64,000 nt of DNA, taken from contig NZ_NSKC01000008.1 of assembly GCF_002286985.1 (NCBI RefSeq), forward strand, positions 1 through 64,000, in the 5' to 3' direction. Below are positions 3,086 to 62,107 of the stretch, one piece after another. The position numbers and the translations under genes are program-made. Numbering within the stretch: the stretch's first letter is position 1; each line of letters begins with the position of its first letter. The notes under the pieces were generated by a model. That model was not told the origin of the DNA. It did no database searches and saw only the letters and a program-made list of their open reading frames with translations. This stretch comes from Halorubrum salipaludis. GTDB lineage: Archaea; Halobacteriota; Halobacteria; Halobacteriales; Haloferacaceae.

Positions 3086-4380
3086 CGGTCGGACTCCCCC
3101 GAGCCGTCAGCGTTCGACGCCGAGCCGTCAGCGTTCGACGCCGAGCCGTCAGCGTTCGACGCCGAGCCGTCAGCGTTCGACGCCGAGCCGTCGCCCCCGC
3201 CGTTCGACTCCGACTCCGCGGTCCCGCCCGTCGACCGGGACCCGCCGCGCGTCGCCGACCGGCCCTCGACCGACGCGTCCAACTGCGGCCCGGAGCTGCC
3301 CTCGGCCCGCGCGGAGAGCGTCTGCTGCGGGAACGGAATGACGATCCCCTCGTCTTCGAGCGCCGCCTTGATCGCGTTCATCGCGGCGGTCTGGGTGCGC
3401 CAGCGCTTGCGCATGCTGGGGTTCCGGATCCAGTAGCGGAGCCCCAACACGACCGCCGAGTCGGCGAACCGCTTCGTCACGGCGTTCGGCTCGGGCATCG
3501 CGGCCACGTCCTCGACCCCGGCGACGGTCTCCTCGATCACCGCCGCCGCGCGCTCGATATCGGCGTCGTAGTCGACGCCGACCTCGATCTCGATCCGCAG
3601 CCGGTTCCGCCGCGACCGGTCGATTATCGACCCCGACCGGACCGTGTCGTTCGGAAGCGTGATCACCTCGCCGTCGAACGACCGGAGGCGGGTGCTCATG
3701 ATCGAGATCTCCGTGACGGTCCCCTCGTGGTCGCCGACCTCGACCCAGTCGCCCACCTCGAACGGGCGGGAGAACATCAGCACGAAGCCGGCGAGGATCG
3801 CTCCGAGCGTCTGGCGGGCCGCCATCCCGACCACGATCCCGAGGAAGCCGGCCCCGACGAGGAGCCCGCCGACGTTGTCGGTGAACAGCCCCACGACGAC
3901 CAAGATTGCGAAGGTGTACACCGATATCTGGGTGAGCCGCCGGATCACCTCCTCCTGGTGGTCGGACAGCGCCGCGCTCTCGGCGGAGATCTCGCGGATG
4001 ACCCCGCCGAGGAAGTCCGTGACCGCGTAGGCGCTCGCTAAGATCACCACCGCGAACACGACGTTCGACAGCTGGTCGGCGATCGCCGCCGACTCGTAGG
4101 CGTCGAGGAGCGCGCCGCTCCGGTCCCACACCGCGAGCAGCGAGAGCGCGCCGACCGCGGTGGCCCCGGCGACAGCCATCGACAGCAGGAGCCGCCGCTT
4201 CGAGGTGAGCTCCCCGTTCCGCCGCTTCGCCCACCCGGTGAGGAGCCGGACGCCGAGCACGGCGGCGACAATCAGCGCGGAGACCGCGACGCGCTCGACG
4301 TTCCCCGTCACGGCTCCGTAGAGATCGCTGAACGGCCCGGGAAGGGCGGTCGCGTTCTGCGCGAGGAGGGAGGCGATCAC
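3082..4380 (-). CDS. MscS-family mechanosensitive channel with repeat tail
   Basis: A small-conductance mechanosensitive channel that releases solutes on membrane stretch. The N-terminal half has several hydrophobic helices. The pore helix and beta domain follow, with the family pattern around GFLGIVVGMAARQTLGAILAG and RPFEVGDWVEVGDHEGTV. I prefer the GTG at 4380 (432 residues). An ATG at 4503 in frame would add 41 arginine-rich residues unlike a membrane-protein start, although it lies only a few bases after the rsmA stop. The C-terminus is a hydrophilic tail of tandem SASNADG repeats encoded by a perfect 21-bp tandem repeat, so tail length is probably variable. The stop overlaps the hemK-like start. 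Confidence 0.85.
   Translation of the reverse strand: MIASLLAQNATALPGPFSDLYGAVTGNVERVAVSALIVAAVLGVRLLTGWAKRRNGELTSKRRLLLSMAVAGATAVGALSLLAVWDRSGALLDAYESAAIADQLSNVVFAVVILASAYAVTDFLGGVIREISAESAALSDHQEEVIRRLTQISVYTFAILVVVGLFTDNVGGLLVGAGFLGIVVGMAARQTLGAILAGFVLMFSRPFEVGDWVEVGDHEGTVTEISIMSTRLRSFDGEVITLPNDTVRSGSIIDRSRRNRLRIEIEVGVDYDADIERAAAVIEETVAGVEDVAAMPEPNAVTKRFADSAVVLGLRYWIRNPSMRKRWRTQTAAMNAIKAALEDEGIVIPFPQQTLSARAEGSSGPQLDASVEGRSATRGGSRSTGGTAESESNGGGDGSASNADGSASNADGSASNADGSASNADGSGESDR
3101..3184. repeat. 21-bp perfect tandem repeat, 4 copies, inside mscS
   Basis: Four identical 21-bp units (3101-3121, 3122-3142, 3143-3163, 3164-3184) and a partial fifth. They encode the repeated SASNADG heptads at the channel C-terminus. 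The unit length is a multiple of three, so copy-number change would keep the frame. Confidence 0.97.
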
Positions 4381-5542: not shown

Positions 5543-5998
5543 CGATTGGTGGCGGGAGTGGGTATCGCAGATCGGTGGCGGCGAGACGGGATTTAAACTG
5601 CCAAGAGCGACGGCGACGCTCACTCATAAACCGATCTGCGGTGGCGTGCGCCTCCGAGCGTGCCGCCGAAGGCGGCCGCGAGGAGCACGCGCGAGGGACG
5701 CCGCGAGCGCAGCGAGCGGCGAGGCTGGGGAGGCGTGAGGCGCTGTGCGGTGCTGTGCGGGGCGGGACTCAAAGGGGCAGTCGCTGTGGGCGGCGCAGGC
5801 GACACAAGCACCGCAACGAGGGAGCGACAGCGACCGAGTGAGGCGCGCAGCGAGCGTGCGCCGCCCACAGCGACTGGGGCTTTGGAGGCCGTCACTCCAG
5901 AGTCGTCGATCACTTATAAACACCCGCCAGTACCACCACAATCTGACTTATAAACAACCAACCCATCGAAATGATTCACGTACTCCCGCTATCGATCG
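5543..5998 (+). repeat. Dispersed structured element, copy B (complete)
   Basis: A full copy of about 456 bp. The left terminal inverted repeat (about 5543-5576, CGGGAGTGGGTATCGCA core) faces a weaker right one (about 5964-5998, TACTCCCGCTATCGAT). After the left end come ATTTAAA (about 5591) and CTCATAAA (5622-5629) boxes, then hairpin 1 (GCCGCC-GAA-GGCGGC near 5662-5676) and hairpin 2 (CGCCGC/GCGGCG around 5699-5721). Next is the conserved GGCTGGGGAGG linker, and then hairpin 3, where 5779-5797 pairs perfectly over 19 bp with 5857-5875. One 3' module with CTTATAAA and the ACTTATAAACAACC block follow. It lies between rsmA and the DUF655 gene. Confidence 0.93.
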
Positions 5999-15924: not shown

Positions 15925-16380
15925 GATCGATGGCGGGAGTAAGTCTCGCACGTTGGTGATCTGGTTGTTTATAAGTCGGATTGAGTTGTTGCCGTCGGCT
16001 GTTTATAAGCGATCGATGATGCTGCGGTGAAGCCCTCCAAAGCCCCAGCCGTGAGGCGGGCGGACGCTCGCTGCGCTCCTCACTCGGTCGCTACCGCTCC
16101 CTCGTTGCGGTGCTTGTGTCGCCTCCGCCCGCCTCACGACTGCCCCTTTGAATCCCACCCGACCGCGACCGCACAGCACCTCATGCCTCCCCAGCCTCGT
16201 CGCTGGCGGCTATCGCCGCCAGCGACTCCCTCGCACCGTCGGCTCGCGGCCGCCGAGGGCGGCCGCTCACCGGGGCGCGCCACCGCACGGCATTTATAAG
16301 TGATCGTCGCCGTCGCTTATATCCTTTTAAATGCAAGATCGCTCGCATCAATTTGCGATACCCACTCCCGAACTCAATCA
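15925..16380 (-). repeat. Dispersed structured element, copy C (complete, reverse)
   Basis: A full 456-bp copy read on the minus strand, filling the gap between the convergent livF and prs genes. Terminal inverted repeats lie at about 15925-15956 and 16349-16380. Hairpin 2 is a perfect 12-bp stem (16199-16210 with 16215-16226). Hairpin 3 pairs 16124-16141 with 16047-16064 over 18 positions; the single deviation is a U-G pair when read as minus-strand RNA but C-A on the other strand. Two GTTTATAAG boxes lie at about 15965-15972 and 16001-16009, and an ATTTATAAG box at 16291-16299. It has one 3' module. Confidence 0.94.
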
Positions 16381-32938: not shown

Positions 32939-33440
32939 CGATTACGGGAGTGAGTCTCGCAAATCGGTGGGGACGATACGGTATTTAAATAGCTGTGAGC
33001 GACAGGGACAATCGCTTATAAAGGACGCCGCGGTGGCGTGCGCCTCCGAGCGGGCCGAAGGTCCGCGAGGAGACCGCACGAGGGAGTCGGCGGCGACCAA
33101 CGGGAGCCGCCGACGAGGCTGGGGAGGCGTGAGGCTGCGGTTGCTGTGCGGGGTGGGGGCTCAAAGGGGCAGGCGTGAGGCGCCCAGAGACGATGTAAGC
33201 ACCGCAGGAACGAGTGGAACGAGTGACGAGGAGCGCAGCGAGTGTCTGGGCGCCTCACGCCTGGGGCTTTGGAGGTCCTCGCCGCCGATCTCCAGTTAAC
33301 CATTTATAAGTGATCGGCTGGGGCTTTACAGGTCTTCACCGCAGAGCCGTCGACCACGTATAAACAGCCGACAGCAACACCAAAATCAGACTTATAAACA
33401 ACCGAACAGCCAATTTGCGAGACTCACTCCCGCAATCGAT
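32939..33440 (+). repeat. Dispersed structured element, copy D (complete, 502 bp)
   Basis: The best-preserved full copy. Terminal inverted repeats at about 32939-32967 and 33411-33439 share GGGAGTGAGTCTCGCAAAT. ATTTAAA (about 32982) and CTTATAAA (33015-33022) boxes come next. Hairpin 1 (GCGGGCC-GAA-GGTCCGC, about 33050-33066) holds a G-U pair. Hairpin 2 is GTCGGCGGC/GCCGCCGAC. Hairpin 3 pairs 33171-33188 perfectly with 33245-33262. The copy is about 46 bp longer than B and C because the 57-base 3' module occurs twice (GGCTTT at 33265 and 33322). It lies between convergent genes. Confidence 0.95.
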
Positions 33441-38697: not shown

Positions 38698-39090
38698 CCC
38701 TTATAAATGATAATGCGGTGGCGCGCGCCTCCGAGCGGTCGCCCTCGGCGACCGCGAGGAGCGCGTGCGAGGGACGCGGTGAGCGCTCGGAGAGCGCGAA
38801 CCGCGAGGCTGGGGAGGCGTGAGGCTGCGGTCGCGGTGCGGGTGGGAGTGGGACTCAAAGGGGCAGCCGCGAGGCGGGCGCAGGCGACGTAAGCACCGCA
38901 ACGAGGGAGCAACGCGACCGAGTAAGGAGCGCAGCGAGCGTGCGCCCGCCTCGCGGCTGGGGCTTTGGACGTGTTCACTGTCGATCCGTAGACGACCGCT
39001 TATAAGCGAGCGACTGAGGCTTTGGAGGCCATCATCGTCGATCCGCGGTCAAAAATCCCAGAACACTCAAACCCGACCCGCAATCGATAC
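38698..39090 (+). repeat. Dispersed structured element, copy E (left end lost)
   Basis: The copy starts at CTTATAAATG without the left inverted repeat and ends with a degenerate CCCGACCCGCAATCGATA right end (about 39070-39087). Hairpin 1 is GGTCGCC-CTC-GGCGACC and hairpin 2 a CGCGGT/ACCGCG stem. Hairpin 3 pairs 38865-38882 perfectly with 38941-38958. The 3' module is present twice at 57-base spacing (GGCTTTGGA at 38961 and 39018), with CTTATAAGCGA between. It sits between the pdaD start and the PAN stop. Confidence 0.92.
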
Positions 39091-44384: not shown

Positions 44385-44757
44385 TGAATGTCGTGCGGTG
44401 GCGCGTGCCTGCGAGGCCGCCCTGCGGCCGAGCAGCACGCGCGAGGGAGTCGGCCGGCGCTTATAAGCGCCGGCCGACGAGGCTGGGGAGGCGTGAGGTG
44501 CGGGTGCTGCGCGGTCGGGTGGGACTCGAAGGGGCAGTCGTGAGGCGGGCGCAGGCGACGTAAGGACCACAGCGAGGGAGCGACAGCGACCGAGCGAGGA
44601 CCGCAGCGAGCGTGCGCCCGCCTCGCGGCTGGGGCTTCGGTGATGTTCACCGCCGATCCGGAGTCATCGACGTATCGCCGAGCGGCTGGGGCTTCGGTGG
44701 TGTTCACCGCCGATCCGCAGTCAACGACGTATCGCCGAGCGGCTAGGGCTTCGGTGG
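44385..44757 (+). repeat. Dispersed structured element, copy F (3' module repeated)
   Basis: No terminal inverted repeat is evident. Hairpin 1 is GGCCGC/GCGGCC. Hairpin 2 is a perfect 30-bp palindrome at 44449-44478 with TTATAA at its centre. Hairpin 3 pairs 44536-44553 with 44613-44630, all 18 positions, two of them U-G on the plus strand. The outer helix reads CGAAG (44527-44531) and CTTCG (44635-44639), where the other copies have CAAAG and CTTTG, a matched change. The 57-base module follows in tandem: GCGGCT at 44625, 44682 and 44739. Confidence 0.94.
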
Positions 44758-47294: not shown

Positions 47295-47585
47295 TTTATA
47301 AGCGGTTGCTGGCGGCGGATCGACGGCGAAGGCCTCCAAAGCCCCAGGCGCGAGGACTCGCGCGGCTCGCTGCGCGCTTCAGTCGCTCGCGTTGCTCGCT
47401 CCTTCCAGTGCTTGCATCGCCGTGCGTCGTCCTCGCGGCTGCCCCTTTGAGTCCCACCCGACCGCAGACCGCAGCCTCACGCCTCCCCAGCCTCGTCAGT
47501 CGCCGTCGCTTCGCTCCGGCGACTGACTCCCTCGCGCGTGCTCCTCGGCCGCGGGGCGGCCTCGAAGGCACGCGCCGCCGCGGCT
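47295..47585 (-). repeat. Dispersed structured element, copy G (reverse, ends lost)
   Basis: The core is read on the minus strand between the HFX_2341-type gene and cofH. Hairpin 3 is shortened and imperfect: 47429-47440 pairs with 47346-47357 at 11 of 12 positions. The CAAAG/CTTTG outer helix is kept. Hairpin 2 (GTCAGTCGCCG/CGGCGACTGAC) and hairpin 1 (GGCCGC/GCGGCC) are intact. No inverted-repeat ends are seen; a TTTTTTATAAGCGG run marks the 3' module end (about 47291-47304). Confidence 0.88.
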
Positions 47586-56147: not shown

Positions 56148-56271
56148 GTCGAGGGCGTCCACTCTCCCGGTGTCTGCTACCGGTCGAGGGCGTCCACTCT
56201 CCCGGTGTCCGCTACCGGTCGAGGGCGTCCACTCTCCCGGTGTCCGCTACCGGTCGAGGGCGTCTTTGAGG
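56148..56271. repeat. 35-bp tandem repeat at the end of a hydrolase gene
   Basis: Three full units start at 56148, 56183 and 56218, and a partial fourth starts at 56253 and diverges after about 12 bases (inside the gene). Units 2 and 3 are identical and unit 1 has one change. Each carries the DALDR-stop end of the hydrolase gene, so the stop has been copied downstream. Nothing else is seen in the 113-base gap. Confidence 0.95.
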
Positions 56272-60187: not shown

Positions 60188-60525
60188 CTGTTTATAAACA
60201 AACGGTGCGGTGGCGTGTGCCGGTGAGCGGCCCACAGGGCCGCGAACCGCCCGCGCGAGGGAGTCGGCCACTCGGAGCGAAGCGGAGAGTGGTCGACGAG
60301 GCTGGGGAGGTGTGAGGCGCGGGGCGGTGCGGGGTGGGATTCAAAGGGGCAGCTGCGAGGCGGGCGCAGGCGACGTAAGCACCGCAGCGAAGGAGCGACA
60401 ACGACTGAGCGAGGAGCGCAGCGAGCGTGCGCCCGCCTCGCAGCTGGGGCTTTGGAGGTGACGACCGCGCTAGCAACCACTTATAAGCGTGTGACGAGGG
60501 CGTTGGAGGTGTTGGCCGTCGAATT
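60188..60525 (+). repeat. Dispersed structured element, copy H
   Basis: The copy begins at CTGTTTATAAACAAAC without a clear inverted-repeat end. Hairpin 1 is GCGGCCC/GGGCCGC. Hairpin 2 is an 11-bp stem (GTCGGCCACTC/GAGTGGTCGAC) with one G-U pair. Hairpin 3 pairs 60351-60368 perfectly with 60428-60445, carrying a matched change (CTGC/GCAG) relative to copy E. A second, degenerate 3' module starts 51 bases on (GGCTTTGGA at 60448, GGCGTTGGA at 60499). It lies between convergent pelA and the cyclodeaminase gene. Confidence 0.92.
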
Positions 60526-62020: not shown

Positions 62021-62068
62021 GTGAGAGAACGGGTTGGAAGTGAGAGAACGGGTTGGAAGTGAGAGAAC
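62021..62068. repeat. 19-bp tandem repeat, 2.5 copies
   Basis: The unit GTGAGAGAACGGGTTGGAA occurs at 62021-62039 and 62040-62058, with a partial third from 62059. It lies beyond the 3' end of the DUF3054 gene, between it and the small membrane-protein gene. No function is suggested. Confidence 0.95.
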
Positions 62069-62107
62069 GAGGCGGAGAAGCGAGTTCGAAGCCGCGATCG
62101 CGACCGC

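Follow-up and report, generated by a model that had tools for sequence, protein, structure and literature searches.

Several kinds of repeat described in other genomes resemble, in part, the one considered here. Haloquadratum walsbyi carries mobile repeats without a transposase, of the MITE, PATE and SMR types, and in the excerpted account of that genome these are, like ours, short, non-coding, dispersed, haloarchaeal and either palindrome-bearing or bounded by inverted repeats; the SMRs among them lack a target duplication and are bounded by inverted repeats that match no known transposon, as may also hold for the long form of our element (PMC3119063). In Porphyromonas gingivalis, according to extracts of the report, a minisatellite lies inside a MITE, giving a tandem array within a dispersed small element as in our case (PMC4596501). 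Closer to the Halorubrum host world, the class I repeats of halovirus HF2 are ~58 bases long, intergenic and furnished with an AT-rich box (PMC8707807). Finally, a survey of 261 prokaryote genomes found dispersed non-coding satellites with long units in two species only, Leptospira interrogans and Methanocella conradii, whose genome-dispersed arrays are also built of long tandem units (PMC6749651).

The window analyzed here covers the initial 64 kb of contig C26, from a Halorubrum genome of 3.5 Mb, and contains copies A to H of a recurrent element, some of them ending in repeated units of 57 bases. We favor, with moderate confidence, the view that this 57-base module is a minisatellite (VNTR) sited at the 3' terminus of a structured element which is dispersed between genes and probably transcribed from its + strand.

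The array in copy F and the element that carries it

A reading made from the sequence alone had claimed that a 57-base module expands in tandem in copy F. This was borne out by TRF, which gave an array at 44625-44757 with period 57, 2.3 copies and a 94% match, the top score in the window. Units 1 and 2 are 95% identical, differing at 3/57 positions, and the third start, at 44739, is followed by only ~15 bases of unit sequence. The starts assigned earlier (44625, 44682 and 44739) hold for GCGGCT, whereas the string GGCTTCGG sits 8 bases on, at 44633, 44690 and 44747. The features are as follows.

44394-44637, + strand: body of copy F with its hairpins, the main hairpin closing at the array (profile match, 197 bits; RNA fold z -5.7)
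44525-44541, ends approximate, + strand: 5' arm of the main hairpin of copy F, GGGACTCGAAGGGGCAG, with the compensating G (sequence; covariation in 253 copies)
44627-44683, + strand: tandem unit 1 of copy F, 57 bases from GGCTGGGGCTTCGG (TRF; the earlier start, 44625, is 2 bases upstream)
44684-44740, + strand: tandem unit 2 of copy F, 57 bases, sharing 95% identity with unit 1 (TRF)
44741-44757, + strand: truncated start of a third unit of copy F, beginning GGCTAGGGCTTCGG (TRF)
4-128, + strand: body of copy A, incomplete (truncated either by the profile or at the end of the contig), single unit (profile match)
5637-5884, + strand: body of copy B, long form, single unit (profile match)
16038-16287, - strand: body of copy C, long form, single unit (profile match)
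33030-33271, + strand: body of copy D, long form, second unit start 57 bases on (profile match)
38714-38967, + strand: body of copy E, second unit start 57 bases on (profile match)
47337-47581, - strand: body of copy G, single unit (profile match)
60206-60454, + strand: body of copy H, degenerate second start 51 bases on (profile match)

The second starts reported for D and E (57 bases on) and H (51 bases on) were likewise found, those of D (GGCTTTACA) and H (GGCGTTGGA) being degenerate, and A, B, C and G have a single start. The motifs fared less evenly. That most units hold TTCACCG proved too strong a statement for the window, and the consensus of 253 element copies is TTC[G/A]CCG. The TTATAAG box said to be frequent is absent from the units of F, which read CGTATCGC in its place. 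A TTTATAA box is kept in most non-terminal 57-base units. Taken as a whole, the sequence-only reading is partly supported. The window also holds other strong tandem repeats, of 21 bases (3099-3192, 4.5 copies, 100% match), 35 bases (56148-56264, 3.3 copies, 98%) and 19 bases (62021-62069, 2.6 copies, 100%).

Copies were enumerated over 862 kb (all of C26 and C1:1-540000), where a profile of the body gave 61 matches, merging to 55 copies; extrapolated, this would amount to ~200 copies per genome. Judged against gene calls from a self-trained codon model, which are approximate, the element is intergenic, with 0/54 scorable copies overlapping a predicted gene, and 33 of the 54 lie in gaps between convergent genes, compared with 137/738 of all gene gaps. 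A downstream gene that starts in the same direction as the element is present for only 11. The body query matched 72/99 sampled genomes of the GTDB family, in 22/28 genera, with strong matches in the window's genus only, and where the exact 20-base start of the unit matches a named genome, that genome is almost always a Halorubrum. Because the array query matched 30/30 sampled genomes of the genus and 2/118 others, the array is in essence confined to Halorubrum, whereas the body on which it sits is more widely spread. An Rfam search of the window returned two tRNAs and no other family at gathering score, and a search of the open-licence literature, the printed string GACTCAAAGGGG included, found no earlier description, so that novelty is provisional, subscription papers lying outside its scope.

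Unit numbers in this genome and between species

Twenty-three arrays of at least two starts occur in C26 and C1:1-540000, and generally they sit at the 3' end of the same recurrent element; thus the tandem period is not a matter of chance. Here 28, 13, 3, 2 and 2 copies have 1, 2, 3, 4 and 5 starts, respectively, and the largest count in relatives is 9. Counting units, as had been proposed, therefore shows variation, 1-5 here and 1-4 between species at the syntenic loci E and F, comparisons in which each species is represented by one genome. At the locus of F, the count in other species ranges from 1 to 4, and in four species the two flanking genes have no element between them; at the locus of E, 1 to 4 starts are seen across species and several species are empty. 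Unit number thus varies at one locus, as defines a minisatellite or VNTR, at both E and F, between species. At locus D, two other Halorubrum genomes carry the element in opposite orientation beside the orthologous gene, which suggests a separate insertion or an inversion.

Within one array, complete units that lie next to each other show 90% identity (half of them at least 95%), compared with 73% for units of different copies, and this difference argues that arrays grow in place. The earlier suggestion of recent tandem duplication within the element stands in this form. At locus F, units of the same species are 92% identical and those of different species 71%; the corresponding values at locus E do not differ significantly. 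From these comparisons of sequence, duplication in place is well supported as the general case, short of every locus.

The main hairpin and its compensated pairs

The predicted fold of the body comprises a hairpin on the 5' side, a palindrome and the long main hairpin, and for copy F the fold z is -5.7 for the + RNA and -4.2 for its complement. RNAalifold, applied to 29 bodies of this genome, gave a basal helix of 5 pairs and a main helix of 20, and in the latter 11/20 pairs show at least two Watson-Crick types. The first 14 bases of the unit are the 3' arm of this main hairpin: the unit start GGCTGGGGCTTTGG is complementary to CTCAAAGGGGCAGCC in the body, apart from an internal loop made up of G alone. 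This loop, in which GGG faces GGG, is retained by 245/253 copies (in the window, in the stem at 44535-44541 and 44631-44634); it is a possible quadruplex or protein site.

This pairing changes the meaning of the altered CTTCG of copy F, which had been read as a marker of duplication after the change. It is not such a marker alone, being the compensatory partner of CTCGAAG in F's own 5' arm. Across 253 copies, the CTTTG/CTTCG change in the unit is compensated by CTCAAAG/CTCGAAG in the 5' arm. The first basal pair of these non-identical copies is A-T in 230, G-C in 17, A.C in 3 and G.T in 3 (Fisher p=1e-20, a value that overstates independence, as do the other p-values here, because copies and species are related), and the G-C state is found at many loci in several species. 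The stem is 88% Watson-Crick, a share that never exceeded 75% when the 5' arms were shuffled among copies 300 times.

Two further asymmetries bear on where, and in which molecule, the pairing matters. First, the A.C mismatch occurs in 2/145 first units and 16/145 second units (p=0.0009), so the constraint appears to fall mainly on unit 1; the arm and the TTTATAA box are strongly conserved in unit 1 and later units alike, and later units may therefore keep some constraint. Second, at ten stem positions, G.T outnumbers A.C by 110 to 29 (14 to 4 in this genome alone, p=0.03), which favors a + strand RNA. This bias suggests that the element acts as a putative + strand RNA, although strand-biased mutation could produce the same excess.

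The minisatellite on a structured element could then arise as follows. Each unit begins with the main hairpin's 3' arm, GGCTGGGGCTTTGG, which leads into a spacer of variable sequence and in most cases a TTTATAA box with GCGAGC after it. The unit could be duplicated when the repeated 14-base arm allows slippage or unequal recombination. Selection would act mainly on the hairpin made with unit 1, in the putative + strand RNA, and extra units would, because of this, be mostly tolerated passengers. A row of gene promoters seems a poorer description of the array than a rapidly changing by-product of a structured element that is itself conserved.

Alternative readings and known systems

Four other readings of the element deserve discussion, none of which we consider likely. 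The main rival is that it is a relic of transposase-free mobile DNA of the MITE, PATE or SMR kind, spread by some transposase, with the array a product of neutral decay and slippage that serves no function today. The element has the many dispersed copies expected of such DNA, it is present or absent at syntenic loci and reversed at locus D in two species, and repeats of this kind are, from the excerpted account, abundant in Haloquadratum (PMC3119063). Further, a long form, mostly 425-490 bases between its inner ends, is bounded by imperfect inverted terminal repeats of the type TGATCGAT...GCGGGAGTGAGT (in copy D, near 32945 and 33432), a pattern with 64 matches in the genome and 0 for the reversed control; the short form, F included, is without these ends. 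Long-form copies may be of the SMR type, with their inverted ends, no target duplication evident by eye beside them and a length too short to code. Paired ends lie ~280-625 bases apart, and none in the genome is spaced at transposon length, so that neither a transposase-bearing element sharing the ends, as for a MITE, nor an autonomous parent was seen here. As for PATEs, which share near-terminal palindromes with IS605-type elements, the body matches at 0/3 TnpB loci, a comparison confined to this genome's own loci; we reject an origin as an IS605/TnpB guide RNA on this ground. An origin in phages is likewise rejected, since these gave no match to the element, and plasmids gave partial matches in only 6 records, which also speaks against mobile DNA, as do the strong placement between convergent genes and the fact that neither a target duplication nor a parent transposon was seen in this genome. 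Finally, a dead relic is not expected to show compensatory changes in its stem or a G.T bias. The two views are compatible, however, as the element may have spread in this way and had its fold kept.

Somewhat less probable still is that the units are tandem promoters or protein-binding sites, as had been proposed, with each TTTATAA box recruiting TBP or another protein and more units raising or modulating transcription. TTTATA is indeed a TATA-box motif in this genome, 18/22 upstream matches lying 26-35 bases before a start codon, at leaderless positions; the box kept in non-terminal 57-base units gives a TATA-like match in 119/148; and the 58-base repeats of the Halorubrum halovirus HF2 are proven promoters (PMC8707807). 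But most copies, lying as they do between convergent genes, have no gene start downstream, and the box is lost from the units of F, which makes a promoter array improbable. Moreover, many 51/54-base units have GTATCGC instead of the box, and CTTATAA is unenriched at the promoter position (1/6). A better promoter candidate than the unit boxes is a TATA-like box just 5' of the body, which is found in 30/39 copies with an alignable start, nearly always 12-15 bases from the body, compared with 2% of background intergenic 40-mers, and which may drive the putative RNA.

The remaining possibilities concern the lengths of the units. Spacings of 48 to 72 bases between units are divisible by three in 217/222 cases among 253 element copies, the same phasing is seen in 15/19 clusters of unlike cores (p=6e-5) and 8/11 distinct lengths (p=0.009) when the 57-base class is set aside, and the length of the body is out of triplet phase. 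Such phasing may descend from the lengths of founder units. An improbable reading is that the element is a haloarchaeal structured RNA, with perhaps 200 intergenic copies in each Halorubrum genome, in which any of several triplet-phased 3' arms closes the hairpin, the number of arms tuning alternative folds between convergent genes. That the units encode a repeated peptide, a reading favored by spacings, clusters and lengths in multiples of three, is very improbable, because no frame is open in every unit (the best, +3, in 157/197) and each of the six frames has a negative codon score (-0.97 to -1.5 bits per codon, compared with +0.56 for genes), besides which the body is off phase and an excess of synonymous changes was not found for any open frame.

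The minisatellite on a structured element differs from each of the known systems with which we began. The excerpted description of the Haloquadratum repeats mentions no tandem array of a hairpin arm, and the Halorubrum element lies mostly between convergent genes and keeps a compensated hairpin (PMC3119063). The minisatellite of Porphyromonas gingivalis is bacterial, and the extracts of its report give no relation between array and hairpin arm (PMC4596501). The HF2 repeats occur singly at each site, are proven promoters and have no hairpin body, and they carry the motif CTTTAAGT where the Halorubrum units carry TTTATAA (PMC8707807).

In general, an element that fills, by extrapolation, 1-2% of the genome and is a candidate structured RNA with no counterpart among the Rfam matches of the window would offer, in the arm-copy variants found at one locus, a natural series, and the triplet phasing of seemingly non-coding units is a puzzle in its own right. 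The satellites of Leptospira and Methanocella were limited to those two species in the survey, whereas the Halorubrum arrays are genus-wide and sit on a structured element (PMC6749651); they would thus be a genus-wide case of a satellite, tied to a conserved hairpin element.
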